Positions 3,401-28,155 of a stretch of 28,226 nucleotides of DNA are shown piece by piece. The first letter of the stretch is position 1. The number at the start of each line of letters is the position of its first letter. Below the pieces are notes generated by a model. That model made no database searches. It was not told the origin of the DNA and saw only the letters and a list, made by a program, of their open reading frames with translations. The translations under genes were made by a program, and so were the position numbers. Location of the stretch: IMG/VR virus record IMGVR_UViG_3300040751_000177, positions 1 to 28,226 of that record; one strand, 5' to 3'. This DNA comes from a virus.

Positions 3401-4311
3401 ACACTGTCCCAAGCGTCGATGGCGTTCAGATCATCGATTTGAGCCTGTAGACTGGCAGTAGCGCTGCTAATCGCCGCAGCTCTAGCCGACGCTTCGTTAG
3501 TAATCGCAGTAGCACGTGTCGTCGCTTCGTTAGTAATCGCGGTAGCACGCGCTGTTGCTTCGGCCGTGTCGGCAGCTGCCCGGGCCGCTGCTTCAGTTGA
3601 GATAGCCGTCGCCCGTGCTACTGCTTCCTGGGCGATGCGGTAGTCCACTGACCCAGTAACCGTATCGCTAGCATCAACCAAATCGATGCGCGTAGAAAGC
3701 GCGGCCGTTAGTTCGCTCGCGCTGATTGCTCCCGTCAGCTCGTCAAGGAGCAAGTCTACGTTCGGAGCGGTTTCAGCCAGCGTGCCAGCGGAAGCATTAA
3801 AGGGCCCGGGTACACCGGAAGTCGAAACGTGGCGAATCCAATAGTAGTAGCTCTGACTTTCCCCCGTGGCGTCCACATATGCTAAGCCGGAAGACACACC
3901 AATAAGCTGCGCATCACCAAGGACGTCACTGTCATGGCGCCAGATCTCAGTCAGACTGTGATTACCGTAGCGGGGATAGTCCCAGTACAGCTGAATAAGT
4001 GAATAACCGCCCGTCGCGGTAAACCCCGTAGGCCGAGGCGGAATCGCTTGATCAGCGTCAGGGTTAAAGAAGTCTAAATCTGTGGGGCGATTCGGATTGT
4101 AGGGCCGAGTACGTAGTTCCTCGGCTAGCCCAGACTCAATCAGCTCCCTCAGAGTTATTGCCCGGTCACGCGGGTCCCCCCGGCGGCCAAGACGTACCTC
4201 CAATGCCTCAGAGATGCTTTCAAGATAGGCCCGAAGCGCCGGGGAAACGTCCGACGGCGGCTTAGGAATCCCAGGAATAGTGGTGGGCGTTGGAGTACGT
4301 GGGTTGCTCAT
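481..4311 (-). CDS. gpJ-like straight tail fibre / tip attachment protein with nine 42-aa repeats
   Basis: 1276 aa from the ATG at 4311, which overlaps the upstream stop as ATGA. A GGAGGAG lies about 11 bases upstream; an earlier in-frame start at 4347 is less likely. In order: a Pro-rich N-terminus; a fibronectin-III-like domain (about 90-180); an Ala-rich coiled coil with repeated ATAITNEA-type units (about 228-290); a chitin-binding-like module (about 296-343, Y-x-x-x-D-x-V then LWKALAAN and W-E-L-I-G-D-Y); nine tandem 42-residue repeats (398-775); four to five degenerate repeats; a DUF1983-like segment beginning KYVVKIDNNGAVAGYG (about 989); then a beta-solenoid of 10-residue AxIxxAKIxDA units (about 1066-1147) and a beta-rich tip. 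The second half resembles the end of lambda-type J proteins, which contact the receptor. The N-terminal J hub is absent, so this is a separate fibre chain. The next gene is its likely chaperone. Confidence 0.8.
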   Translation of the reverse strand: MSNPRTPTPTTIPGIPKPPSDVSPALRAYLESISEALEVRLGRRGDPRDRAITLRELIESGLAEELRTRPYNPNRPTDLDFFNPDADQAIPPRPTGFTATGGYSLIQLYWDYPRYGNHSLTEIWRHDSDVLGDAQLIGVSSGLAYVDATGESQSYYYWIRHVSTSGVPGPFNASAGTLAETAPNVDLLLDELTGAISASELTAALSTRIDLVDASDTVTGSVDYRIAQEAVARATAISTEAAARAAADTAEATARATAITNEATTRATAITNEASARAAAISSATASLQAQIDDLNAIDAWDSVTSYAIDDLVTHNNKLWKALAANSNSEPTTSNSNWELIGDYTSLGDAVGNNTSDIQQINYVNSSSTSAAAQAIAALEVTVNDTSTGVTATASALSSLDTRVTTAEGSITTNATDITALENTVNDASTGLAATVTAVSGLDTRVTAAEGSITTNASDITALENSVNDPSTGLAATVTAVSGLDTRLTSAEGSITSNASDITALESTVNDASTGVAATATALSALDTRVTTAEGSITTNASDITALENSVNDPTTGLAATVTAVSGLDTRVTAAEGSITTNASDITALENTVNDPTTGVAATATAVSSLDTRVTTAEGSITTNASDITALENSVNDPSTGLAATVTAVSGLDTRLTSAEGSITSNATDITALENTVNDPSTGVAATATALSSLDTRVTTAEGTISTNSSDITALENTVNNPTTGVAATVTAVSGLDTRLTSAEGSITTNASDITALENTVNDPSTGVAATASGLSTLTTAVQSNDSDISSLSASVTSLTSGLATANTNISTNANAVSALDTRVTSAEGSITSNASNITSLQSGLAAANTDISTTSTALSALTTRVTTAENTIAVNASDIVSLENTVNDPSTGVAANSAAITNLSTTVSSQGTSISANSSDITALENTVNNPTTGVAATASALSTLSSTVSSQGTTLSAAVSDISTLNTTVGNNSASIQTQATSIDGLEAKYVVKIDNNGAVAGYGLASTANDSGQILSEFIVNVDRFALLKTSTDNGTPTVPFIVQTTAQTVNGVSAPAGVYITDAFIRNGAIANAKIGQAAIDNGKIADASITTAKIQDAQITAAKIQDAQITNAKIQNGAITNAKILDATITGAKIGNAQIDTLQLAGESVIVPVADTYSGYIASSWPTVRTYLNGLPNPQITLTLTTEVLVLWGVRFLGQSSGAGDMLIRIKEDTTTIFQMGGTPRALSTGGFMGGAIRRSKAAGTYTYYMEWSAYNSPLYEAYIILLGIQR
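968..1025 (-). repeat. Exact 28-bp direct repeat inside the fibre beta-solenoid
   Basis: Positions 968-995 and 998-1025 are identical over 28 bp with a 30-bp period. On the coding strand each unit encodes one AKIQDAQIT rung of the C-terminal beta-solenoid of the gpJ-like fibre. Neighbouring rungs are more diverged, so this pair is probably the most recent rung duplication. Confidence 0.9.
1987..3120 (-). repeat. Nine tandem 126-bp (42-aa) in-frame repeats
   Basis: Nine consecutive units of exactly 126 bp (1134 bp in all) encode variants of S-x-LDTRVT-x-AEGSITTNA-x-DITALEN-x-VND-x-x-TG-x-AAT-x-TA-x. The period of 42 is six heptads, with hydrophobic spacing fitting a trimeric coiled-coil shaft. 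Amino-acid sequence is well kept while many third positions differ between copies. Some neighbouring copies still share exact DNA, for example 2861-2895 and 2987-3021 (35 bp, 126 apart). Degenerate units continue down to about 1400. Confidence 0.95.
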
Positions 4312-6026
4312 GTGGCCGAAATCTCCTCCATGCTCTGGGCAAGGCAAACCTCGTCGATTTCCACCGCCCCAGACACCTCAACCTCCCACTCCTGGGCGAT
4401 AACGGGGGGCAGCCGCATGATCGGTTCCCGCAGCGTACCGGTGCTTGCACCTGCTGGAGCGGTAACCGTTTGAGTGTATACGTTTGCCGCATACGACAAA
4501 CTGTAGTTCGCAATCAGCGTACCGTCGCCCCAAACTTTCACCGTAACTGGGTAAGCCTGGGCGTGTACGGACACCCAACCCATGCTAACGGGCTTAGGCG
4601 TAACGTACTTTTTGGACTTCCAAGTCAGCGTTCGGTTGGTGCTACTGCCTCGGTACTCTTTGATTTTGTCCGCAACCACCAGATACAGCTTACCGTCCTT
4701 CGGGTTCGAGTAACCTCCGTTGACTTGTCCTGCCGTGGTGAGGCGAGAAATAGCAGTTTCAGCCCCACGAGGGTCATAGACAAAGCCAAGGTGGTCAGAA
4801 CCATCAGTCCAAAAAGCCACGTAAGTATTTTCATGCCTGAATGCTCTGAGACCAGTGGGGTTAAAATCAGCGTTCCACTGCTTAGCGGAAATAAGGCCCT
4901 GAGTAACAACTTCCCCCTGCCCACCAGTAACGGCCACGAGCCCATCAGGCCCTGCGTAGAGCAGATAGCTGCCCATATCGACGACGGATCGTGCATTGAC
5001 GCAAGCCTGAGCAATGTCCATTTGCACAGCAGTCATGGCGCTCGGGTCAGTGCCGGTAACAAAGTACGGTCGTCCGTCGGTCAGCGCTACGATACCGTTG
5101 CTCACGCTTCCGATAGCAACGATGTCTTCTTCCAGCGTAATCCGGTAGTCGATGGGCCAAGCATGAGGCAGGAACGGCTCACTCAGGCATAAGCGATTGC
5201 CAGAGAACCCAGCGAACACACCGTTAGCTACGGCGGTCAGGCCCTGCATAGGCCCATCTGGGTACAAAGACACGTTGTCGTCCGGCGGACCGATCCACGA
5301 TTCACTCGGCAGCACTTCTCCGAGGCCTGCAGAAGGCGTGGTGTCGTCGTAGGAAGTGGTCGTAAACGCTACTTCTGCCAGGAACTGGAACGTGGTGTTA
5401 GTCGAACCGGTGTTTGACCGGTAGATCCGTTTGAGCGCGCCGGTCCCAAAGTTGTAGTTGCCAGACGGATGGTCCCCAGACGGCATGCTGACGGTCACAG
5501 TCTCCGTGTCCGTGCGCTCAACCGCCGTACAAGCGGGGCTAGGAGGGCCTTCCTCCCCAAAAGCCGTCACGAACGTGTACACATAGGACACATCATCGGG
5601 CGTTTGGGTGTCGTCAGCCGTGCCGGTCTTAGAGATCGAAGGCGCGTTAGCTGGGGCGGGAACACCCAGACGAAAGCTGTTAGCCGGGTACCCGGTGCTG
5701 CCTGCAATCATGGACGTAATCGTGCCCATGCGCGGGTAGTCCTGCCCCGTCCAGTACAGGCGCTCGTTAGTGTCGTCGGGAATCGGCCCAGCTACGGCCT
5801 TTACGTCTTCGTCGTCCCACTCCAACCAGTTCGTGTCGCGGTAGTAGTAGATGCTGCGAACAGCACCACTCTGCAGCGTGAACTCGTCTACATCATCGGT
5901 AGTAGGAGCAAGGCGCCCTGATTCAAAATCGATGTTTACAGCGGTCTGAGCAAAGTCGTCAGCTAGGAGGCGGGGGGCGACACCGGGGGCAATGCCGTTG
6001 AAACGGGTCCGCTTGAAGTAGGCCAT
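4308..6026 (-). CDS. Tail nozzle/hub-like structural protein (predicted beta-propeller)
   Basis: 572 aa, ATG at 6026 preceded by GAGGT five bases upstream. The N-terminus (MAYFKRTRFNGIAPGVAPRLL, then F-A-Q-T-A-V-N-I-D-F-x-S-G-R-L-x-P) is typical of tail hub or nozzle proteins that line the podovirus tail channel. The middle is almost all beta, with repeated short blades such as GVFAGFSGNRLCLSEPF, IVALTDGRPYFVTG, LLYAGPDGLVAVTGG and YVAFWTDGSDHLGFVYDP, as in a propeller. A fibronectin-like stretch with EEGPPSPA lies near residues 145-170. The C-terminal part ends in a W-E-V-E-V-S-G element with a late LAQS motif. It could be the functional counterpart of T7 gp12 (794 aa), but in T7 that gene precedes gp13, while here the gene lies far downstream next to the straight fibre. 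The family assignment is from pattern recognition; the role in the tail is inference. Confidence 0.6.
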   Translation of the reverse strand: MAYFKRTRFNGIAPGVAPRLLADDFAQTAVNIDFESGRLAPTTDDVDEFTLQSGAVRSIYYYRDTNWLEWDDEDVKAVAGPIPDDTNERLYWTGQDYPRMGTITSMIAGSTGYPANSFRLGVPAPANAPSISKTGTADDTQTPDDVSYVYTFVTAFGEEGPPSPACTAVERTDTETVTVSMPSGDHPSGNYNFGTGALKRIYRSNTGSTNTTFQFLAEVAFTTTSYDDTTPSAGLGEVLPSESWIGPPDDNVSLYPDGPMQGLTAVANGVFAGFSGNRLCLSEPFLPHAWPIDYRITLEEDIVAIGSVSNGIVALTDGRPYFVTGTDPSAMTAVQMDIAQACVNARSVVDMGSYLLYAGPDGLVAVTGGQGEVVTQGLISAKQWNADFNPTGLRAFRHENTYVAFWTDGSDHLGFVYDPRGAETAISRLTTAGQVNGGYSNPKDGKLYLVVADKIKEYRGSSTNRTLTWKSKKYVTPKPVSMGWVSVHAQAYPVTVKVWGDGTLIANYSLSYAANVYTQTVTAPAGASTGTLREPIMRLPPVIAQEWEVEVSGAVEIDEVCLAQSMEEISAT

Positions 6027-16464: not shown

Positions 16465-16911
16465 TTATACCTCTTCCCGCCAGTCGCGGCCTTCCCAAAG
16501 AGCCGCTTCTGCCGCTCTGCGTTTTACCAGTCCAGGCAGCTCTTTACCGCCTGCCTTCGTCCAGCGCTTAATCTGAGTAGGTACGTCGCTAAGCGGCCCG
16601 TAATTAACGCGATTAAGAAGGGTAGACTCCTTCAAGTTACCCGGACCTAAATTGTAAACCCACGCTACAAGCGCGTCGAACTGATTCTGCTTGAGGTCGA
16701 TCTCGGTGGCTTCGCGGACATAGCCTTCGAACTCTTCCAGATCTTCGATTAACAAAGCTTCGGCGGCTTCTTGGTCGATGGCATCGCCTTCTTTGACCCC
16801 GAGCGTATGCCCGTAGCCGATGGTCCAGACGCCTGCCGGGCATAAATAAGCCTCAAGCTCGCACCCTTCGAAGTGCTTAATCAGTGCTACGCCTTCTTCG
16901 CTCGTTTTCAT
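16465..16911 (-). CDS. Endolysin, GH24 (T4/P22-type) lysozyme
   Basis: 148 aa, a normal length for the family. The catalytic stretch near the N-terminus reads FEGCELEAYLCPAGVWTIGY followed by GHT. The Glu, eight residues, Cys, five residues, Thr spacing matches the known E-8-D/C-5-T motif of phage lysozymes, with Cys in the usual Asp position as in several lambdoid-type enzymes. The conserved NQFDALVAWVYNLGPG and the C-terminal KGR-like region (LVKRRAAEAALWEGRDW) are present. It cleaves the glycan backbone of peptidoglycan. The ATG at 16911 lies one base after the holin stop, with AGGA upstream inside the holin end. A longer in-frame ATG at 17004 would add a partly hydrophobic 31-residue leader but overlaps holin coding sequence. 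Without that leader there is no export signal, so release would depend on the holin. Confidence 0.95.
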   Translation of the reverse strand: MKTSEEGVALIKHFEGCELEAYLCPAGVWTIGYGHTLGVKEGDAIDQEAAEALLIEDLEEFEGYVREATEIDLKQNQFDALVAWVYNLGPGNLKESTLLNRVNYGPLSDVPTQIKRWTKAGGKELPGLVKRRAAEAALWEGRDWREEV

Positions 16912-16912
16912 A

Positions 16913-17386
16913 TCAGTCCTGCCGTTGGCTGCTGCCGAAATAAAAGGCAATAACCGTGCTAAAAGATCCCGTAATGCTACCAAGTATGAGGTTGATAATG
17001 GCATCGCTGTTTTGATCCGGCGGAAGAACGGTCACTAGGATAATGTATCCGGCGAACAGGCAGCACAGGGCGATGGCCAGGAAGCGAGCGGTCCAGTCCT
17101 TGGAGAAATGCTTACGGGCATCCGCCGTGTCTTGGGTTTGGAGCGCATAGAGGTCTACGTCCAGCTCCTTCATGCGAGCTTCGAAGTCCAGCTCGGCCTT
17201 TTTAATCTCCGTCAGTTGCTCCGGGGTCGCTTTCGCCACGGCTTTTTCGATGGCCTGAGGCGTGTTCTCACACCCAAGAACACCCGCGATAGCTGACGCT
17301 GCGGCGCCTCCCAAGGGGCCACCGAGCGCCGTACCAAGGCTCGGGGCCACTGCTCCGATTACGTTCTTAATGGCGTCGAAGTTCAT
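16913..17386 (-). CDS. Holin, three hydrophobic segments (GTA_holin_3TM-like)
   Basis: 157 aa from the ATG at 17386, preceded by AGGAG; an upstream in-frame ATG at 17452 would run into the preceding gene and has no support. The N-terminus has a Gly/Ala-rich hydrophobic segment (PSLGTALGGPLGGAAASAIA) followed by VLG-C. Then comes a charged helix (TPEQLTEIKKAELDFEARMK and onward) and a DWTARFLA motif leading into a transmembrane helix (IALCCLFAGYIILVTVLPP). The last hydrophobic segment is AIINLILGSITGSFSTVIAF, followed by YFGSSQRQD. This order matches 3-TM holins known from gene-transfer agents and many proteobacterial phages. It forms the inner-membrane lesion that lets the adjacent lysozyme reach the wall. 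The two genes are one base apart, so expression is coupled. Confidence 0.88.
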   Translation of the reverse strand: MNFDAIKNVIGAVAPSLGTALGGPLGGAAASAIAGVLGCENTPQAIEKAVAKATPEQLTEIKKAELDFEARMKELDVDLYALQTQDTADARKHFSKDWTARFLAIALCCLFAGYIILVTVLPPDQNSDAIINLILGSITGSFSTVIAFYFGSSQRQD

Positions 17387-17394
17387 GGCGGCTC

Positions 17395-20300
17395 CTAAAG
17401 CTGGTTGTAAATGGGTAGCAGGCGGTCGCGCAGAGTGCGGTCGATACGCCAACCGTTGGACAGGGCCGTATCGATGGTCTCGGCAGTAGGCCCAAGCAGC
17501 GGCATGAGGGGGCTCTTATCCCACTCAGCGTTCTGGTGCATCATCGCGCCCATGGTAAGGGGGCCCAGGAAGCCAGAGCGGTCGATCACCTCAAAGGCGT
17601 AGGTCGGCCAGTCCATACGGTCCGTACGGAAATAACGGGACTGGGCGTCCACCCCAGGCAGCAGCCACGCTAGACCAAACTTGGCATACTCCCGAAGCTC
17701 CATAGCCAGCATCGCGAGCGGCATTGTAGCGACAGCGGTAAGAGCAAAGATAGATAGAGACCCAGTCAGCTTATCCAGCTGGGTGCCTTCTTCACCCTTG
17801 CGAGCGCGAGCTTCGCGAGCGATACCACCTAAGATGACCTTACCGTAGGCATAGAAGTAGGACTTCAGCTGCCAAATAATCGCCCAGTGTGGGTCAGAGG
17901 CCCACACAGGTCGCTCGGCAGCGTTCGGGCGGAGGATCGACGACTCCACAAAACGCTGGAGCCCCTGCTTCACCTTCTTACCCTCGGGCGTAGAGAACTT
18001 CCTGCCACCGTCCATCCACACCATGACATCTTCTTTCGTCAGCCCCAGCTCTCGCAGGTACCGTTCCGAGCGAGGATTGTCGAACTCGTTACGGGCGTGC
18101 TTCGTGATGAACTGCACTCCCATCCCTGCGGCGAACTCGCGGGAGAAACGGGTGAAGAACTCAAGGCCGATAACCTTGAAGAACTTGTCGGACATCTTAC
18201 GGACCGTCGGGTCCATGTAGTCCTGCTCGGCCTGCGTAACCCACGCATTTGAGACGGTCTCACTAGAGACGACGCCGATGTCTCGCGCGAGCTGTTCGGC
18301 TTCTTGGCGATTTCGGATAGTCGCAGCAATCTGCTTGAAGCCGTCTGCCACCGCAGAAAACTCCTTGGACGCGATGACCGGACCGGCCAGCTCAGGTAGG
18401 GACGCGATGGTGGCGAAGGGTAAGATCGTGACGAACTGGACGAACTGAGCCCAGCTGTTCACCTTCCGCCATAGCGGGCTAAGAGGATTGGCCTGATAAC
18501 CAAGGTAGGTGCCAATGATCTCGCGCGCAACGGCCTGATCTTCGGGGCTAAGTTTCGCCAACTCAGCGTCTAGAATGCTTTTCCCGTCAGCGTCTTTCGT
18601 TGCCTTGTTGAATTCAACGCGCTTAACAACGGAGCGCATGTAGTTAACAAACGCGTCCTGCGGCTCTTGTAGGAACCCTGCTTGCTGCATCACCTCGCGA
18701 GGAATACCGCGCGTAAGCACAATTGACTCTTCAGCACGGGCTGCTGGATCCGTGGGGTCAAAGCTGATAATCGCATTGTCTTCGTTCTGGATAGTGCGAC
18801 TGTAGCGAGCGAGATCATAAACAGCCTTATTCGCACGCTGCCTAGATATACCAGGCTGGTTAGCCATCAAAAGGTCTACAAACTCTTCTATGCGACCTTC
18901 GATTTCAGATAGGTTAAGAGCGACCGGGAAGTAGTCGTCTTGGAACCCGATGTCGGAGTTAGACGGCTCTACGTAGTCCGCGTAGAAGGCCTGTAGGAAC
19001 TCACGGATCTGCTTAGCCTTACCCGTAAGCGTAGCAGTAGCGTCAGAAGTAGCCGCCTGCCTAAACGCCTCTTGGACTTCGGGATCGTCGAACGCCCCGA
19101 TTTCGTCCTCAAATTTGTTCTGCATTTCACGAATTTTGGTTGCTGCCGCCCCAACCATTCCGAGGCGACCAGCACCGCGCTCGTCTTGAGAGCGGACATA
19201 GAACATATCCGCGATCTTTTGTCCGGCGTGCAGACGGAGAACGCCATCAGCCGTACGCACGATCTTCATAAGCGGACGTAGCTTCGGGTTCTTAAGAAGG
19301 TCTTGGAACTTCTTGCGCCAGTGTCTAGCTAGCGCTTCGCCCCCTTCTTCGACGATGACCTCGTTTATAGCCTGCGGCATGGCGCGCAACGTAAACAGGT
19401 CGGCGTCTACCTGCGACCCGTCACGCTTAGCTGCAACCACAGCGTCGAGGTACGTCTCAAAGTCTTGATCCATGCGGCCGATCCGAGCCCGCATGGTTCT
19501 GGACAGCTGCTGGTAGAACCGGCGGAGTTTGTTCGCCAAGCCCTTAAAGTGCCGGTCGACAGCGTTTTTAGCCTGACGCCGTAGATACTGACGGCTTGCC
19601 CAGCGCGCAGTCTGATCGGCGTACCACTCTTCGAAGCCTTGGTCGAACCCGTACTTCTGTACCAGTGCGTCGAAGGTCTGATGCTTACGGAACGCCTGCT
19701 CCAGACGGCTACGAATCGCAGGGTTAGTGAGAGCGTTGTTCTGCTCCTCTTTGAACAGAGAGTGGCCCAACTCATGTGCGAGCACAAACATCGTACGGAC
19801 CGGGTTGCGCCGGCCCTGAGAACCGTCTTTGACGATTACAATCTTCTGCCCTTTCACAAAGATGTGGCGGCCGCCCTTCGTAGGCGCGAATTTCAGCGCT
19901 TGGATGGACTGTGCTACAGCGCTGCGTATCTGTGCATCAGGGAAAAGGATATCCAGCTCAGCGTCAGTCATCTCCGCCAAGGCTTCGAAGGACAGGACCT
20001 GTGGCTCGACCTCTAGCTTCAGGGCATCTAACAGCTCTTGATAAGCTGCTGCGAAATCAAAGTCCTGATTGAGCGCAGGGTCGAGCACCTTTAAACGGGC
20101 CCGCTGTGCAAGGCGCTCTCGCTGCTGCTCAACGGTGGCTCTGGGTGCCGCCGCCGTGGTCTCAGGAGCGGGCGGAGTCTCCTGAATATTCATAGGAGTT
20201 AGCGGAAGATCACCGGTGGTTTGCTCCGCCATGGCGGCCATTTCGCCGCCAGTATCAGCAAGCGCCGTGTCTTCTTGGTCAAAACGCGCGCCTGGGTCGG

Positions 20301-22974
20301 CTGCGCGAAGCTTACTAACCAAATTTTTGAAGTATCGGTCAGACGAGGTTATAGCCGAGCGGTTTAAATACGGGCGGCTAGACCATAGATCGGTCTGTCT
20401 GGCGTACCACTCTTTTAGGCCGCCATCAAAACCGTACCTTCTCACCAGCGCATCGAACGAAGAGTGCCTGCGGAATGCCTGCTCTAGCTGATTCCGAATA
20501 CGCGGGTCTTCTAAAGCAGCGGCCTGCTCTTCCGCGATTAATGCCTGCTGGCGAGGTGCCGCAGTATCGCGGGTGAGATTAAGCACCTGATTCAGAGGGA
20601 TGCTTTGCCCTTCGATAAAGGCGGCAGTGACGTTGGAGTTACGAAGGCGAGCGTAGTTCTGCTGGTCAAGGAGCGACTGCCCATCGACGCGCACGTCGTA
20701 GCCTTCTGCGGCCAGATCACCAAGAATCTCAAACAGTCCTGCTTGAGCAGACTCAAGGCGATTCTGCCCCTCAAAGCGCCCGGTCTGCCGACCTTCCACA
20801 AGTCGCTGCCCCGCGCGAACCAAGTCGACAAGGTTCACGGCGCGAACTTTGCCTTCCGGATCAGTGATTGCAACCCGTGAGTTACGGGCGAAGTTGCTCC
20901 GCGCCGCTTTTTGAATAGACCGGCGGATGAACTCTGGCAGCGGCAGCGATAGCTCTTGTCCACCATCACGCATGCGGAAGAGTTCGTCGAAGTCCTGACG
21001 GACAACTTGATAGCCCTGCTCAGTCGGCTCGACAGTTACAACGCTGTTCGGGTTCTCGCGTTGGATTCGGGCGGCTTCTTTTAGAGTGGCTTCGGTAATG
21101 CTGCCAAAAGCAGGATCGCCCCAATCAACATCCCCGAACACACTAACGTAATCAGCACGCGCTTCTTCGGTGTTGGGGAAGACTTCGTTGGGGTCACGCT
21201 TGCGCCCCCGGTTAGCAACCACAGTGCGTTCGGGTTCAGTTTCCTGTACTCCCACTTGACCGAGCAGTTCATCCAGCTGGCTGAAGGGGCGCTGTCGCCC
21301 AAACTCATCGCCGTTGTCATCAACTTCCATGTCACGGATGTCGGGGCCGGCCTCTCGGCCAGCTCTTTGAGCACGTTCTTCAAGCGCCTTTTCTACCGTA
21401 GTCTGGCGGATAGAGCCGCCGTCTGGCATGAGCCCAGACGCAGTGTTGAACGCTGCTGCCAGGCCATCTTGGGTCGTCACCTCTTCTGATACCACCCCTC
21501 CTTGGCTGTCGAACACCTGTACCACGGTGTCGCCAGGAGAAACAGTATTCTTGGCAGCGCTATAGCCAAGGGCAGTTGCGAGCGACGCGTCGCTTGCTTG
21601 GTCAGCAACGACCTGCTCGACCTGCTGACGATTCGTGGAAACAATCGTCCCACGGCCAGGGATAAACGCAGCATAGGCTAGGTTACCGTCAACAGCGATC
21701 TCAGTAGCTTTACGTTCGCGCGCTCTAAACTGCGGAGTGTTACCTGCCACCCAGACAGAGTTCTTGGTGCTGCTGGGGTCAAGCATCGCACGTAGCTGAG
21801 CGTTAATGTCGGCCTGCGATTCCGGCGTAGTATTGCCGGACATAACGTTGCCAAACTGCTCTTGGTTGATCTGATCGTCCAGCTGCTGGCTCTGAGCACT
21901 GTCTAACAGGCGCCGTGCTTTATCAACTACCGCTGCAGCGGTGTCTATCGGGGCAGAATCGGCGGCAGCAACTACAGCTGAAGCACCCGCCCTACCTGCC
22001 GCCCCGAGCGCCCCGCCGCTAAAGAACCCAGCAAATGCAGCTTCACCAAGGCGCATGGCTGCGTCTTGAGCGGTAAACGTGTCGTCCATAGACGCACGGT
22101 TAACGATGTTCAGGCCTTCTTGCAGCGTTTCAGTCGAGCCTTCAACGGCGGCAGTTCTACCTGCGCTTCTAGCCAGGTCGGCAGCAAACTCGCCAAAAGT
22201 AGTGGCTTCGCCCGCCAGTCTTTCGTTAACCACGTCGCCGAACTGCTTTAGCAGGCTACGAGCAATGACTGATTCAGCTGCGACGCCTATCCCCGCTATA
22301 GGTGCGCCTACCATAAACGCGCGGAAAGCTGCGCCCGCGTCTACTTCTTGCCCCGCTTCAATACCCTCGCGTAGCGCTCCAGCCGACGCTGGTACATATT
22401 CAGCCCCAAAAGCCCCGGCTAACGCTCCGCGTTTCGCGTAGTCGTAAGTTAATTGAGCTAACTGCTGCTCGCTAGGAGTAGCTACGCCCCTAGCAGTGCG
22501 CTCAATAGAGTCTCTTGCAACTCGTTCTGCGGTTTTTTGGGCTACTTTCTTGCCAACAAGCTTGCCGATAAGGCCGCCCACGCCGCCGCCGGCTAAAGAA
22601 GTGGCTACTGAGCTAACAGTCTGGCCCGTAAACTTCCCTACTTGGTCTATAAACCCAGTAACGGTCGGTTCTTCGGTAAACTCCCCAAACGATTGCAGCC
22701 CAGCGACGGCTGCAGCAGCTGCCTCTTCACCCTGTTGAGCCGTACGGATGTTCTCTTGCGCAGCGGCTTCGTCGCCAGTCGCTAAGTTAAAGAGGGCCTT
22801 GAAGTAGTCTATGTCGCTGCCAAGACCTTCTATGCCAGCTGACATCCCTTGAGTAAGGGCCTCGCCAAAGCCAGAAACTGCAGGGGCAGGGACCGGTTCA
22901 GCGTTAGCTCTCGGATCTTCCCCAATGGCTTCTGGGTCTACGCCCAGGAACTCCCTGATAGGATCGTAAGCCAT
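17395..22974 (-). CDS. Giant internal virion/ejection protein with zinc-metallopeptidase motif, in the gp16 position
   Basis: 1859 aa, ATG at 22974 with AGGGG seven bases upstream. N-terminal 350 residues: Gly/Ala-zipper hydrophobic stretches (SSVATSLAGGGVGGLIGKLV near 120; MVGAPIAGIGVAA near 225; FFSGGALGAAGRAG near 320). Middle: charged and variable. Residues 1062-1120: FVLAHELGHSLFKEEQ with H1067, E1068, H1071, then FEEWYADQTARW (E1115/E1116, D1120), a gluzincin-like HExxH...E arrangement. Residues 826-890 repeat the helical region that follows HELGH (1087-1151) but without the zinc motif. C-terminus: long helices, hydrophobic segments (FVQFVTILPFATIASL; SLSIFALTAVATMPLAMLAM) and VWASDPHWAIIWQLKSYFYA, recalling large polyvalent-protein-associated domains. 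In T7 the gene in this place (gp16, 1318 aa) is ejected into the host envelope and carries a transglycosylase; none is evident here. An ejected peptidase is inference. Confidence 0.78.
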   Translation of the reverse strand: MAYDPIREFLGVDPEAIGEDPRANAEPVPAPAVSGFGEALTQGMSAGIEGLGSDIDYFKALFNLATGDEAAAQENIRTAQQGEEAAAAAVAGLQSFGEFTEEPTVTGFIDQVGKFTGQTVSSVATSLAGGGVGGLIGKLVGKKVAQKTAERVARDSIERTARGVATPSEQQLAQLTYDYAKRGALAGAFGAEYVPASAGALREGIEAGQEVDAGAAFRAFMVGAPIAGIGVAAESVIARSLLKQFGDVVNERLAGEATTFGEFAADLARSAGRTAAVEGSTETLQEGLNIVNRASMDDTFTAQDAAMRLGEAAFAGFFSGGALGAAGRAGASAVVAAADSAPIDTAAAVVDKARRLLDSAQSQQLDDQINQEQFGNVMSGNTTPESQADINAQLRAMLDPSSTKNSVWVAGNTPQFRARERKATEIAVDGNLAYAAFIPGRGTIVSTNRQQVEQVVADQASDASLATALGYSAAKNTVSPGDTVVQVFDSQGGVVSEEVTTQDGLAAAFNTASGLMPDGGSIRQTTVEKALEERAQRAGREAGPDIRDMEVDDNGDEFGRQRPFSQLDELLGQVGVQETEPERTVVANRGRKRDPNEVFPNTEEARADYVSVFGDVDWGDPAFGSITEATLKEAARIQRENPNSVVTVEPTEQGYQVVRQDFDELFRMRDGGQELSLPLPEFIRRSIQKAARSNFARNSRVAITDPEGKVRAVNLVDLVRAGQRLVEGRQTGRFEGQNRLESAQAGLFEILGDLAAEGYDVRVDGQSLLDQQNYARLRNSNVTAAFIEGQSIPLNQVLNLTRDTAAPRQQALIAEEQAAALEDPRIRNQLEQAFRRHSSFDALVRRYGFDGGLKEWYARQTDLWSSRPYLNRSAITSSDRYFKNLVSKLRAADPGARFDQEDTALADTGGEMAAMAEQTTGDLPLTPMNIQETPPAPETTAAAPRATVEQQRERLAQRARLKVLDPALNQDFDFAAAYQELLDALKLEVEPQVLSFEALAEMTDAELDILFPDAQIRSAVAQSIQALKFAPTKGGRHIFVKGQKIVIVKDGSQGRRNPVRTMFVLAHELGHSLFKEEQNNALTNPAIRSRLEQAFRKHQTFDALVQKYGFDQGFEEWYADQTARWASRQYLRRQAKNAVDRHFKGLANKLRRFYQQLSRTMRARIGRMDQDFETYLDAVVAAKRDGSQVDADLFTLRAMPQAINEVIVEEGGEALARHWRKKFQDLLKNPKLRPLMKIVRTADGVLRLHAGQKIADMFYVRSQDERGAGRLGMVGAAATKIREMQNKFEDEIGAFDDPEVQEAFRQAATSDATATLTGKAKQIREFLQAFYADYVEPSNSDIGFQDDYFPVALNLSEIEGRIEEFVDLLMANQPGISRQRANKAVYDLARYSRTIQNEDNAIISFDPTDPAARAEESIVLTRGIPREVMQQAGFLQEPQDAFVNYMRSVVKRVEFNKATKDADGKSILDAELAKLSPEDQAVAREIIGTYLGYQANPLSPLWRKVNSWAQFVQFVTILPFATIASLPELAGPVIASKEFSAVADGFKQIAATIRNRQEAEQLARDIGVVSSETVSNAWVTQAEQDYMDPTVRKMSDKFFKVIGLEFFTRFSREFAAGMGVQFITKHARNEFDNPRSERYLRELGLTKEDVMVWMDGGRKFSTPEGKKVKQGLQRFVESSILRPNAAERPVWASDPHWAIIWQLKSYFYAYGKVILGGIAREARARKGEEGTQLDKLTGSLSIFALTAVATMPLAMLAMELREYAKFGLAWLLPGVDAQSRYFRTDRMDWPTYAFEVIDRSGFLGPLTMGAMMHQNAEWDKSPLMPLLGPTAETIDTALSNGWRIDRTLRDRLLPIYNQL
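19522..19716 (-). repeat. Duplicated module, copy B (downstream of HELGH, with EEWYAD)
   Basis: Encodes residues 1087-1151 of the 1859-aa protein, starting IRSRLEQAFRKH and containing FDALVQKYGFD and FEEWYADQTARW. It directly follows the HELGH helix and supplies the candidate third zinc ligand. By hand alignment about 40 of 65 residues match copy A (20305-20499) without gaps. Confidence 0.9.
20305..20499 (-). repeat. Duplicated module, copy A (no zinc motif, Asp changed to Arg)
   Basis: Encodes residues 826-890, starting IRNQLEQAFRRH and containing FDALVRRYGFD and LKEWYARQTDLW. Upstream similarity to copy B extends only over ALIAEEQ-x-x-AL (versus SLFKEEQ-x-x-AL). The HELGH helix itself is missing, and the EEWYAD of copy B is KEWYAR here. 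Confidence 0.9.
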
Positions 22975-22983
22975 TTATAGCCC

Positions 22984-25131
22984 CTAGGTTTTCTTCTTAG
23001 CTTTTTCTTCGTTTCGGCGAACCTGCCGCACAACAGTGTTATAAATAGTGCTATCAAGTTTTTGCAGGTCTGAAGCAAGTAGCCCCTCTTGCAAGCGCTG
23101 ACCGTTATCATCAGTGTAGTAGAACATATACGGGCGCCCGCCTCTTATCTCCATGGTTACGCGGCTAAGGTCAAAGTCAGACGTAGTCGTACGGTCCGCT
23201 ACGTCTCCGAAGCGGAAGAACGATGCAAGAGTTTCGTAGAAACCTCCTTCCTCTTCGGCAGCAAGCGCCCCAACCGTAAGGCTGAGGGCTGAATTTAAAC
23301 CAGCCGAGTACCGATCTTGTTCTTCCTCAGAAGCCGCTTTAGTAGCCTTCATGTTGTACGGGCCCAGCACATCGCGAGCAAACTTCCTAGCTGTTTCAGC
23401 GTTAAGGTTGTCTTCGCTACCGTCAGGGCCGAAGTATAGGTCCTGAACTGCGCTCTGAAACTCAGCTGCCTCGTTAGCAGCGGTATCAATTCGAGTCTGA
23501 AGCGCTACGTCTTGATCCGTACCGTACTCCCGAACCCGTTGCCGAAGCGTCTGCATTCTTACGCCGAGATCCGCTTCGCTAAGGCGGAAACTTTCAGCGT
23601 CTTTGCGGGACATACTGACCGTGCCCGTCTCAAACAGGTTATCGATGGAGGCGGACATGCTCGCCCGTATGGTCGGATCTTTAACGGAGGCGAGCATAAC
23701 GGCGCGGGCGATAGCGCGGTCTTTGATGTTTAAGCGCTTGAGGTCTTCCGGGGTACGGACGCCTGCCTGCTCTAGAGCTTGCCGTGTGCCGCTTACAAGA
23801 GCAGGAGTAACCGCCAGATCACCCGAATCTATCGCCCTTGCCACTTCGTTAGAGCTCATACCTTCGGTTTTCGCTGCAACGCTGTCCGCTTCCTGAGTAG
23901 TCTCTGGAGCGGCGAAAGTTAGCGGGGCCCCACGGTCTTCGAAAGAAGACCGCTGGCGGAACTCGTCCCGCTTTCTAGTCGCCTCGGCTAATCGCCGTTG
24001 CGCAGGCGCACGCATGCGGGGCTGATTGGAGGCTCGGTCAACAGCTTCTTGGGCTTTAGTTACCTCAGCCTCTAGCTGCGCCATGCGTTGCTCTCTGCGA
24101 ACGCGGAGTCTCGGGGCAGCGGTAGAGGTGATAGGCTCGGAGGAAGGCTGTGCCCCGCGCGGCGGGAGCCCGATATCCGATGCGATGCGGTCCGCGATAT
24201 CGGCTCTCTCTTGAGGGGTCTCAGCAGCAGCAAGAGCGTTAAAAGCAGCACGTTGCGCGCTAGGGTCTTCAATGGCGCTCAACAGTTGCCGCTGGTACGA
24301 CAAATCCTCTAGCCTTCTCCCCGCCGCAATTGCGTCTTCGCGCTCTAAGCCTTTTGCATCCTGCTCGATAATGTTCATTTGCGCACGGAACGCGGGCAAA
24401 TCGAACTTAGTCTGGTTAGACAAAACGTTCAATTGATACGCAGTTTCCGCTAGCCCAGCAAGCCGCCCTGGCTCAAACTCAACCACTCGCGAGTCAGGCC
24501 GACTAGACCCATCCTCGGTAACGGCGCCTAGGGAGTCATCTGCGTTTCGCACAGTGACCGCGTACCCCCCGTTTGGTAAAGGCTGGATGCTCTCGGCAAC
24601 GGAACCTTTAGGCAAAGCGCCAGACTGGGTAGCTGTCGCAAGCATAAGGTCAATGTGATCCTGGCTGCCGCTTTCGACCCCCGCACGAAGGGCGTCCCTG
24701 TTAAATTTAGTCGGGTCGTTTGGGTCAAGGATATTGATAGCTAGATAGCCATCGATAATAGAGTCGTTCGTGGTACGCCTAGCAGTAACCTCCGCCGCTT
24801 TGTTAGCCTGCTCCTGCGCAGTATTTGCGAGCTCAGATCCTCGAAGTGTAGCCGCGCGCTGATCAGCGCCTTCGTCATAGGACCTTAGTCGAAAATCGAA
24901 ATCTCTGTCTGCAAGTTGATACTCTTTTGCGCGCAGGTCCAGGGCCCGGTCTTGCTGAGCTAGAGACCGCTCCTGCTGCTGAAAACGCTGCTGCTCTGCT
25001 GAGGCCTGCTGCGCAAGCCGCTGGCGGTCTAGCGCAAGCGCGTCCTGGCGATACTGATTCTCACGCCGTTGCTGCGCGAGAGACTGAACACCTTGAATGC
25101 CCGAGAGCAGGCCACCTGCAAAACCACCCAT
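22984..25131 (-). CDS. Internal virion protein, gp15-like, coiled-coil N-terminus
   Basis: 715 aa, close to the 747 aa of T7 gp15, and in the same order between gp14-like and gp16-like genes. ATG at 25131 with AGGAG six bases upstream. After a short Gly-rich start (MGGFAGGLLSGIQGVQSLAQ) residues about 20-120 are a Gln/Arg-rich coiled coil (RQRLAQQASAEQQRFQQQER and onward). The central part is alpha-helical and charged. A second coiled coil (MAQLEAEVTKAQEAVDRASN) lies near 345-400. The C-terminus ends in a very basic RRNEEKAKKKT. There is no signal peptide, transmembrane helix or enzyme motif. By analogy with T7 it would form the periplasmic tube of the ejectosome with its neighbours; this role is inferred from size, order and composition. 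Confidence 0.72.
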   Translation of the reverse strand: MGGFAGGLLSGIQGVQSLAQQRRENQYRQDALALDRQRLAQQASAEQQRFQQQERSLAQQDRALDLRAKEYQLADRDFDFRLRSYDEGADQRAATLRGSELANTAQEQANKAAEVTARRTTNDSIIDGYLAINILDPNDPTKFNRDALRAGVESGSQDHIDLMLATATQSGALPKGSVAESIQPLPNGGYAVTVRNADDSLGAVTEDGSSRPDSRVVEFEPGRLAGLAETAYQLNVLSNQTKFDLPAFRAQMNIIEQDAKGLEREDAIAAGRRLEDLSYQRQLLSAIEDPSAQRAAFNALAAAETPQERADIADRIASDIGLPPRGAQPSSEPITSTAAPRLRVRREQRMAQLEAEVTKAQEAVDRASNQPRMRAPAQRRLAEATRKRDEFRQRSSFEDRGAPLTFAAPETTQEADSVAAKTEGMSSNEVARAIDSGDLAVTPALVSGTRQALEQAGVRTPEDLKRLNIKDRAIARAVMLASVKDPTIRASMSASIDNLFETGTVSMSRKDAESFRLSEADLGVRMQTLRQRVREYGTDQDVALQTRIDTAANEAAEFQSAVQDLYFGPDGSEDNLNAETARKFARDVLGPYNMKATKAASEEEQDRYSAGLNSALSLTVGALAAEEEGGFYETLASFFRFGDVADRTTTSDFDLSRVTMEIRGGRPYMFYYTDDNGQRLQEGLLASDLQKLDSTIYNTVVRQVRRNEEKAKKKT

Positions 25132-25140
25132 AGCGGTCTC

Positions 25141-25722
25141 CTAGAATGCAAACGCCATGATCGCCATAGCACCTAGCGATCCGAGCGTGGAGTAAGTCTG
25201 GGCCTTGGAAGACGCCTTCGCCTGCGTATACGAGTTTTGCAGGTTACGGAAGTTCTGCGCCGACGCCCCGAGTTGATTCTGAGACGAGCGGTTTACGCCC
25301 TGACCAATGTTGATCAAGTCGGACATGAGCTGCGTATTTGCCTCGCGCTGAGCAAGGCGTGCGTCGTTAACCGACTGGATAGCCCCAAGCGTATTTGCGC
25401 GCTGAAGGCGCAGGTCCCGCTGCTGCAGCTGCGCCGGGGTTAAGTTCGCGCCGTAGCGGGCGGCGTTGCGACTAGCGACGCCTTGGGTCAGCGCAGCCGC
25501 CACCGGCGCGTCCGCACGGGCCTGATCGATGAGGCTCGTATCCGTTTGCGCCTGCTGGATCAGTTGATTTTCAAAGTCCCGGAAGTTCTGGACATAGTCA
25601 AGGTACTCGCCGCGAGTGATCGCGGCGTACGCCTGCTCAGGATCAGAGACCGCCGGCAGGTTCGTGCCTGGAGTTACGTAATTAGTCGCGCCAAGCCGGG
25701 GTTCAATATCACCAATCGCCAT
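25141..25722 (-). CDS. Internal virion protein, gp14-like
   Basis: 193 aa, almost exactly the length of T7 gp14 (196 aa) and followed by gp15-like and gp16-like genes as in T7. The sequence is Gln/Ala/Asn-rich and predicted helical (QNFRDFENQLIQQAQTDTSL, then TPAQLQQRDLRLQRANTLGA). It ends in a short hydrophobic helix (TLGSLGAMAIMAFAF) that could insert in a membrane. T7 gp14 is thought to form the outer-membrane pore of the ejection channel, and the hydrophobic end is compatible. The ATG at 25722 comes three bases after the previous stop, with GGGGG as a modest ribosome binding site. Sequence similarity to gp14 itself is not demonstrated. Confidence 0.68.
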   Translation of the reverse strand: MAIGDIEPRLGATNYVTPGTNLPAVSDPEQAYAAITRGEYLDYVQNFRDFENQLIQQAQTDTSLIDQARADAPVAAALTQGVASRNAARYGANLTPAQLQQRDLRLQRANTLGAIQSVNDARLAQREANTQLMSDLINIGQGVNRSSQNQLGASAQNFRNLQNSYTQAKASSKAQTYSTLGSLGAMAIMAFAF

Positions 25723-26367: not shown

Positions 26368-26825
26368 TATAGGCGCCTCGAATAAACTATCGTTTCTATG
26401 TCCCACCCAGCGCCGGTCAAATGCTCCTGTAACGCTGGTACACCTGATCTCGTTTCAATCTTGGCGAACCCTGCTTCGCTGGCCGCTCTGATAAAGAAAT
26501 CTTGGTGCTGCTGTACTAAGTTTGTACCCCGCTTTTTGGCCCATGCAAGCCATAAAAAACAGGTTCGTTCTTGTGTAAACGGGTCCGTCTCTCCCGTCAT
26601 CACTACAAAACCCTCATCGGTTATCCAGAGGATGGCCTCTCTACTGATGCAGGCTTTGTATACGTCCTCCGGTACAAATGTCAGATGTGGGTCTTGCTTC
26701 AGTATCTCCTCAACACCTCGTTTTACCCAGGGCCACTCCTCACGGATGTCGCCCATTACGGGTCTAGCCGGACTCCCGTCCGTACCGGTTACGTCGCTTT
26801 GCGACTCCGGAGTAGATTCCGCCAT
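26367..26825 (-). CDS. gp13/GNAT-like phage protein
   Basis: 152 aa if started at the ATG at 26825 (AGGA nine bases upstream). That start overlaps the previous gene by 62 bases; an ATG at 26756 (MGDIREEWPWVKRG) would begin 8 bases after the previous stop but lacks a clear ribosome binding site. The likely domain runs from EEWPWVKRGVEEILKQDPH through REAILWITDEGFVVMTGETD, RTCFLWLAWAKKRGTNLVQQ and FFIRAASEAGFAKIETRSG to GAGWDIETIVY. This beta-beta-alpha-beta-alpha pattern is GNAT-like and lacks an obvious acetyl-CoA loop. Position and length (T7 gp13 is 138 aa) fit the assembly protein that T7 needs for its internal core. Enzymatic activity is not supported. Confidence 0.62.
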   Translation of the reverse strand: MAESTPESQSDVTGTDGSPARPVMGDIREEWPWVKRGVEEILKQDPHLTFVPEDVYKACISREAILWITDEGFVVMTGETDPFTQERTCFLWLAWAKKRGTNLVQQHQDFFIRAASEAGFAKIETRSGVPALQEHLTGAGWDIETIVYSRRL

Positions 26826-27453
26826 ATTTCACCATCCTAGATACGTTCGTGTCTGCGTGACGCCCTCGACGTTCTGCCTCAACGATTCCTTCGTTGAACA
26901 GAGAGCCGTACACCTGCGCCCCTGCGTAATCCGTCCACTCTTTACTGGGCAGCCGAAGCAGCCGGTACAGCGCCCCGTAAATAATCGTCTCACGATAATC
27001 AGACATAAGTTCGTCGTCTGACGACAAGGACGTCTGCGACGGCTTTAGCTGCGCCCGCAAGATGGTGCTGCTGGCGATGGTCTCACCAGGCACCGGCACG
27101 AGATGGAACAAGGACTGAGACACCTTTACGTAGTACTCAGGCGTACCTTCGTAACCAGTTTCGCGCCACCGGGGTTTCCGCTGCTCAAGGAGCTGGGTCG
27201 TGATCGGCTCAATCTCCCGGCCCTTATGCGTGACCCAGAGGATCTTATGCACAACAGACCCGGCGGGCGGCTCTAGGTCATACTCAAACACGTTGGCAAC
27301 AGTAGTCACCGGGTCGAGTTCTGCCTGATAAACCGCTGCTTTCTCACACAGCTCGATAGCCGAGGCCCGGATATTGTTCTCGATCATAGTGTCGGAACAA
27401 CCCGGGACCATCGGGATGATGTCAGGCAGCAAGGCCTCGTAGGGCGTAGCCAT
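26764..27453 (-). CDS. Head-to-tail adaptor / tail tubular A-like protein
   Basis: 229 aa, ATG at 27453 six bases after the previous stop. The N-terminus (PDIIPMVPGCSDTMIENNIR, then ASAIELCEKAAVYQ) and later strands (VFEYDLEPPAG, HKILWVTHKGREIEP, YYVKVSQSLFHLVPVPGE) lead to the helical YRETIIYGALYRLLRLPSKE, ending in a basic tail. The pattern of a short helical start, a beta core and a closing Y-x-x-x-I-x-x-GAL-x-R-L helix is that of small podovirus adaptor proteins joining portal and tail. It follows another adaptor-type gene and precedes the gp13-like gene, the slot of T7 gp11. Subtype is inference. Confidence 0.65.
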   Translation of the reverse strand: MATPYEALLPDIIPMVPGCSDTMIENNIRASAIELCEKAAVYQAELDPVTTVANVFEYDLEPPAGSVVHKILWVTHKGREIEPITTQLLEQRKPRWRETGYEGTPEYYVKVSQSLFHLVPVPGETIASSTILRAQLKPSQTSLSSDDELMSDYRETIIYGALYRLLRLPSKEWTDYAGAQVYGSLFNEGIVEAERRGRHADTNVSRMVKYGGIYSGVAKRRNRYGRESG

Positions 27454-27459
27454 AAGTCT

Positions 27460-28155
27460 TTACCCCGTTGCCATTTGCCGAGGTAGCATACCGGGCACAT
27501 TGGGGGTGGTTAGCGCATCAACTTGACCCTTACCAGTGATCGACGTAGTGAAGATCTGGAAATGGGAAGCCGCACGCTGGTTGTTACCCGCGTAATCCGC
27601 GTCCTTCATGTAAGCCATGTAGAGGACGTAGTTCATCACGGCGTTGGCGTAGATATCAGGGATATCTAGGTTATCGCCCTGGCCCACCGTAGACGGGTTA
27701 GCCGAGTAGATGATCTCTAGATATGCATCGCCGGAGATGCCGGGGTACACGTAGAAGTTACGCGGGTTCTGCTCATCGTAGATGTAATGTTTGACGATGT
27801 CCGTATGCGCCGCGTCCCCGCTAACAAGAGGGTCATGCCAGTCAGGAGTCTGAGCATCCAGAACCTCCCGCTGTACAAGGCGAACAGAGCGCTTGCCCGT
27901 ACCTCCGGAAGCCGCCGACATGTTGCGCACGGCGCGAAGCAGGCGATTACCATCGCTAGGGATGTCCTGCTTGGTCCCGGCGGCGAGCGTAATGGTGGTG
28001 TTTTTAGCGGAAGCGTCGGGCTTTAGGAGAGCAATCTCACGCTGGGCATCGTTAATCCAGAGCACGAGTTCGCCAACAACCGGCCAGCGGACGCCAGTAG
28101 TGTCTTGGAGAGTGGTTTGAACGCGGTCAATCACGCTCTGAACTGAGACTGCCAT
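27460..28155 (-). CDS. Phage adaptor protein (DUF6682-like)
   Basis: 231 aa, ATG at 28155 with AGAGGT five bases upstream, nine bases after the end of the preceding gene. The N-terminus VIDRVQTTLQDTTGVRWPVV followed by GELVLWINDAQREIALLKPD is characteristic of DUF6682-type head-to-tail adaptor proteins. Next come LAAGTKQDIPSDGNRLLRAVR, the strand NFYVYPGISGDAYLEIIYSA and the closing helix IYANAVMNYVLYMAYMKDAD with a Y-A-G-N tail. The protein would sit between portal and tail. Lying between the upstream (possibly capsid) gene and a second adaptor-like gene, it marks the head/tail boundary of the late operon. Confidence 0.78.
   Translation of the reverse strand: MAVSVQSVIDRVQTTLQDTTGVRWPVVGELVLWINDAQREIALLKPDASAKNTTITLAAGTKQDIPSDGNRLLRAVRNMSAASGGTGKRSVRLVQREVLDAQTPDWHDPLVSGDAAHTDIVKHYIYDEQNPRNFYVYPGISGDAYLEIIYSANPSTVGQGDNLDIPDIYANAVMNYVLYMAYMKDADYAGNNQRAASHFQIFTTSITGKGQVDALTTPNVPGMLPRQMATG

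Follow-up and report, generated by a model that had tools for sequence, protein, structure and literature searches.

Does the largest ejection-type protein of a podovirus carry a zinc peptidase, and what would such an enzyme do in a protein that is probably injected by the virus into its bacterial host? We addressed these questions for IMG/VR record IMGVR_UViG_3300040751_000177, of which a stretch of 28,226 nucleotides (the window) was analyzed. This stretch encodes an 1859-residue protein in which a gluzincin-type active site had been proposed from the sequence alone.

A giant gene in an ejection-type gene order

The giant gene is preceded by genes for two SU10-type adaptor proteins and for proteins of 226, 193 and 715 residues, and is followed by the gene for a phage lysozyme, the sole recognized peptidoglycan enzyme in the window (Table 1). 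In T7, gp14, gp15 and gp16 are a small, a mid-size and a giant protein, and the 193-, 715- and 1859-residue proteins match this order; gp52, gp51 and gp50 of N4 are likewise small, mid-size and giant. The sequence-only reading had placed the giant protein at the T7 gp16 position. Gene order and size agree, since both proteins are giant and stand after small and mid-size ejection genes, but searches of family libraries did not connect the sequence to T7 gp16.

Two further observations concern other virion genes. The SU10 adaptor family is matched by two adjoining genes (26764-28155, minus strand; 229 and 231 residues), the second far more strongly. Downstream of the tail-fiber gene, a 572-residue protein (4308-6026, minus strand) matches phrog_511, labeled "internal virion protein", at positions 319-859 only. 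This second candidate internal protein overlaps, at its end, the start of a neighboring 1288-residue ORF.

Table 1. Giant gene, its predicted parts and its neighbors, in window coordinates
Feature	Position	Strand	Evidence or remark
Giant ejection-type (polyvalent) protein, 1859 aa	17395..22974	minus	phrog_30152 and phrog_6958 (virion structural proteins) matched by the C-terminal half
Conserved C-terminal region, residues 1240-1859	17398..19257	minus	common to LUZ24 gp50, tf_51, KPP25 and phiA008
FEEWYAD, residues 1114-1120; E1116 predicted as third zinc ligand, D1120 as supporting residue	19615..19635	minus	conservation
HELGH, residues 1067-1071; H1067 and H1071 predicted to bind zinc, E1068 to act as general base	19762..19776	minus	conservation
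Predicted zincin-like metallopeptidase domain, residues 970-1150	19525..20067	minus	M78/DUF6782 matches among relatives; AlphaFold2 pLDDT 90; BFVD Foldseek E 9e-5
Hypervariable segment just ahead of the peptidase, residues 800-955	20110..20577	minus	mean top-residue frequency 0.10
Decayed partial second domain copy, residues 815-891	20302..20532	minus	58% identical to the real domain
715-aa protein, T7 gp15 position	22984..25131	minus	matches no family
193-aa protein, T7 gp14 position	25141..25722	minus	phrog_8003 (virion structural protein), weak match
Phage lysozyme (endolysin), adjoins giant gene	16465..17004	minus	PF00959, E 1.6e-46

Active-site residues are near-invariant among relatives

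Translation of the 1859-residue ORF confirmed that HELGH occupies residues 1067-1071 and that the acidic motif lies 44-45 residues past H1071, as first described. Any HExxH arose in 0.4% of 20,000 composition shuffles, and HExxH with an ExxxD no more than 90 residues downstream in 0.17%. These rates make a chance origin of the motif unlikely even before conservation is counted, and conservation is the stronger evidence.

A first search returned 9 relatives. An alignment-based search, which relied on two patterns, FEEW[YF]AD among them, supplied the best 80 of 213. In the first set of 60 non-redundant sequences, partly selected through that pattern, E1068 and W1117 are present in all 60, and H1067, H1071 and D1120 in 59 each. 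Because the earlier search had used FEEW[YF]AD as a pattern, we repeated it with the C-terminal domain alone, taking the best 80 of 351 and the best 80 of 419 relatives independently of the motif. Among the 79 non-redundant domains of this second set that align to the model, H1067, E1068, G1070 and E1116 are invariant (79/79), H1071 occurs in 78 of them and D1120 in 77. The active-site positions rank among the most conserved in a domain that otherwise varies widely, and free variation of the His and Glu residues was not seen. The third ligand had been given as E1115 or E1116. The invariance of E1116 makes it the likely ligand, whereas E1115 is not a likely one, and in the sequence E1116 and D1120 form a gluzincin-like ExxxD pattern.

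Departures from the consensus are few. HExxH or HExxxH stands upstream of the C-terminal domain in all of 86 long-enough non-redundant relatives except two: L233, whose sequence ends before the motif, and L219, a natural variant whose HELGE lacks the second zinc-ligand His in an otherwise intact site. In the alignment of the first set, an ordinary FEEW.AD comes after HExxxH in L063 and L076 (L062 seems to duplicate L063 nearly completely), and L035 and L055 have EEWFSD at the usual spacing. The sole relative from a cellular genome lies on a Motiliproteus coralliicola contig, within a phage-like gene set. A tblastn search of isolated phages with the peptidase domain alone gave no match. Elsewhere in the relatives, HEFRH is conserved in an upstream protein of 386-407 residues (L003:3283-4440, L005, L007 and others); it is probably unrelated to the peptidase function.

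The giant protein also contains a second, decayed piece of the domain. Residues 815-891 repeat residues 1074-1150, with no HExxH and with KEWYAR in place of EEWYAD. Among 82 sequences scanned, this copy was seen only in this phage and in a 100% identical record, L001. L002 (90% identical overall) and L003 (81%) are closely related but do not have it, and for this reason the copy, which is partial, tandem and non-catalytic, looks recent.

The predicted fold is zincin-like

AlphaFold2 modeled residues 955-1240 from 57 sequences with a pLDDT of 81.6, and residues 970-1150 from 54 sequences with a pLDDT of 90.0. The elements of the model run helix, strand, helices, strand, strand, HExxH helix, short helices, Glu helix, which is the order of a zincin core, and the small core of an N-terminal helix and three strands is as in the metallopeptidases (MPTases) of polyvalent proteins. 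As in zincins and M78/IrrE, HExxH sits on one helix and FEEWYAD on a later one, with a strand pair ahead; from this topology we infer that the two motifs would meet around one site.

Foldseek comparison of the model with BFVD gave three significant matches (E 9e-5 to 3e-4, probability 1.00), all to giant phage proteins that carry no descriptive name. Weaker matches include proteins named "large polyvalent protein", "ART-PolyVal", IrrE, SprT and WLM, and those at ranks 4 and 6, named polyvalent, have E values of 0.008 and 0.08. No match to the PDB was significant; the zinc peptidases 4l7a, BlaR1 and MATCAP top that list. A sequence search of solved structures matched metzincins only over short stretches around HExxH (best E 0.004), and we discounted these matches.

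Peptidase_M78 is matched by 40 of 58 relatives (best 1.6e-7) and DUF6782 by 11 of 58. The window domain itself scores 19.2 bits against Pfam M78/IrrE (PF06114), under the gathering cut-off of 22; sequence points weakly to this family. Peptidase M78 (IrrE-ImmA) has the same element order and an AHELGH...ExxAD pattern, but its protein context differs. A "tail lysozyme" label (phrog_27932) on two relatives had no Pfam backing and was rejected.

The zincin-like MPTases of phage and plasmid polyvalent proteins, which include an HExxxH form, the N4 virion RNA polymerase (vRNAP) and P1 DdrB, have been described in 12 clades, with self-processing or host targets proposed for them (Iyer et al., 2017; PMC5512222); gp16 and ejection proteins are not mentioned by name in that text. 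Like these domains, the window domain has HExxH, a Glu carried by the conserved helix that follows, and a small three-strand core within a giant phage protein. The relatives of the window protein share with them varied enzymatic partner domains and HExxxH variants (L063, L076, L203, L206). Residues 970-1150 are thus very probably a zincin-like, gluzincin-type metallopeptidase of the polyvalent-protein kind, as predicted from sequence and model, in a podovirus ejection protein. The proposed zinc site is well supported by the conservation of its catalytic residues and by the predicted fold.

A nearly fixed peptidase slot among variable neighbors

By sequence, the nearest relatives of the giant protein are LUZ24 gp50 and the large proteins of KPP25 and phiA008. 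The large virion proteins of these phages and tf_51 have a C-terminal domain homologous to that of the window protein, and those of LUZ24, KPP25 and tf_51 are annotated as particle or structural proteins. Aeromonas phage phiA008 carries HELGH...FDEWFAD, and KPP25 a divergent HESMH at the same spacing, 620 residues from the C-terminal RPxxxxRP motif. By contrast, LUZ24 gp50 (1055 residues) and tf_51 (1021 residues) are without the peptidase and have no HExxH.

Across relatives, the distance from HExxH to RPxxxxRP is nearly fixed (median 622, range 603-885), and RPxxxxRP lies 178 ± 6 residues from the protein end, while the N-terminal part varies from 929 to 1534. The hypervariable region before the peptidase includes a stretch rich in Pro, Glu, Ser, Thr and Gln (residues 900-960). 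In L203 and L206 this slot carries HExxxH-type motifs (HEAFAH/HEAIAH), and the motif downstream of them differs as well; it is probably occupied there by another zincin type.

The upstream extras of relatives include SNase or SNase-like domains (phiA008, Motiliproteus, L203), HhH in L066 and FtsK-gamma in one other; no named partner domain was recognized in the window protein itself. In L203, L084 and L110 the SNase-like nuclease domain lies at the N-terminus of the giant protein, apparently as cargo. The giant protein of L211 has a cpYpsA/SLOG domain at residues 917-1047 (E 1.3e-27), close to the peptidase, and matches NADAR weakly in the same neighborhood. A weak phrog_2206 match in the Motiliproteus prophage-like protein recurs in only 2 of 41 relatives and was set aside. 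Because the peptidase stays put while its neighbors change, it looks like machinery and not cargo.

Processing of the ejection machinery is the favored role

On the whole, we lean toward a zinc-dependent peptidase that processes the ejection machinery and is part of the largest ejection protein in a podovirus related to LUZ24 and KPP25; for self-processing as such, the chances appear about even. H1067, H1071 and E1116 would bind zinc and E1068 would activate water. The substrate would then be the giant protein itself or another protein of the ejection set. Cleavage could fall inside the head, on the way into the cell or soon after arrival there, and would part the C-terminal ejection region from the upstream cargo. 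We prefer self-processing over a host target mainly because the domain is constant in place while its neighbors vary. The near-absolute conservation of catalytic residues in relatives chosen without the motif also argues for it, as does P1 DdrB, which carries such a domain and is cleaved before packaging (PMC5512222).

Other evidence argues against self-processing. The N4 vRNAP, which contains a comparable HExxH domain, goes into the virion uncut (PMC5512222). The lack of HExxH in LUZ24 gp50 and tf_51 indicates that the C-terminal part can work without the peptidase. The hypervariable segment before the domain holds no conserved candidate cut site, and the lost ligand of L219 and the non-significant PDB matches also count against the favored reading. 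We found no experimental test of such zincin domains in the literature.

The N4 protein offers a parallel in layout: its C1 domain, which contains HExxH, precedes a large C-terminal domain, and the protein is the giant that comes last in a small-medium-giant ejection set (PMC12633501, PMC5512222). Its third-ligand context differs (NEFMAW versus EEWYAD in the window), and its polymerase module is absent from the window protein. Profile-profile comparison by hhalign with the N- and C-terminal regions of N4 vRNAP was negative, the N-terminus doing no better than a reversed control. The preprint on the N4 structure (PMC12633501) notes the HExxH motif and assigns no function, and a review of ejection proteins (PMC8954989) contains neither "protease" nor "peptidase". 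Because the N4 vRNAP is packaged uncut and its MPTase-containing region is nevertheless needed for encapsidation (PMC5512222), the domain might be a structural zinc module that has lost peptidase activity and is kept for folding, packaging or refolding on ejection. The invariance of E1068, a predicted catalytic base dispensable for zinc binding, makes this quite improbable.

An injected effector, delivered into the host to cleave a host protein such as a defense or regulatory factor, would fit the proposal that polyvalent proteins are early effectors, a role that Iyer et al. allow (PMC5512222), and the SNase and cpYpsA/SLOG domains of relatives are effector-like. We consider it unlikely, since cargo varies among relatives and yet the peptidase is almost never lost and keeps its C-terminal distance.

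T7 gp16 has an N-terminal lytic transglycosylase. None was evident in the window protein on first reading, and this holds: the protein has no such Pfam match, and no SLT domain occurs in 15 longer related contigs, which are fragments. This absence would suit a peptidase that cuts the cell wall in its place, the different solution to the T7 enzyme first envisaged. That idea did not fare well. No peptidoglycan-peptidase family is matched, the domain lies mid-protein and not N-terminally, LUZ24-type relatives are without it, and zincin and lysozyme can co-occur in published polyvalent proteins (PMC5512222), which counts against replacement; a wall-cutting role is therefore very unlikely.

Returning to self-processing, a broader reading may be offered tentatively. 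Within a large group of podovirus ejection proteins, the zincin slot at a near-fixed distance from the C-terminal domain might be a core element and almost obligatory. A different zincin type could refill it, and it would act as a self-releasing switch, setting variable cargo loose from the ejection apparatus in the course of infection; we regard this as possible but doubtful.

Implications for ejection proteins

The kind of domain is already known, and this ejection-protein group is a well-populated instance of it. Zincin domains in giant proteins injected from virions were described in 2017, and in the literature we found no answer as to what they do, even for N4. The group supplies hundreds of relatives in which the domain is nearly always in one slot while the cargo changes, and it includes the isolates phiA008 and KPP25.
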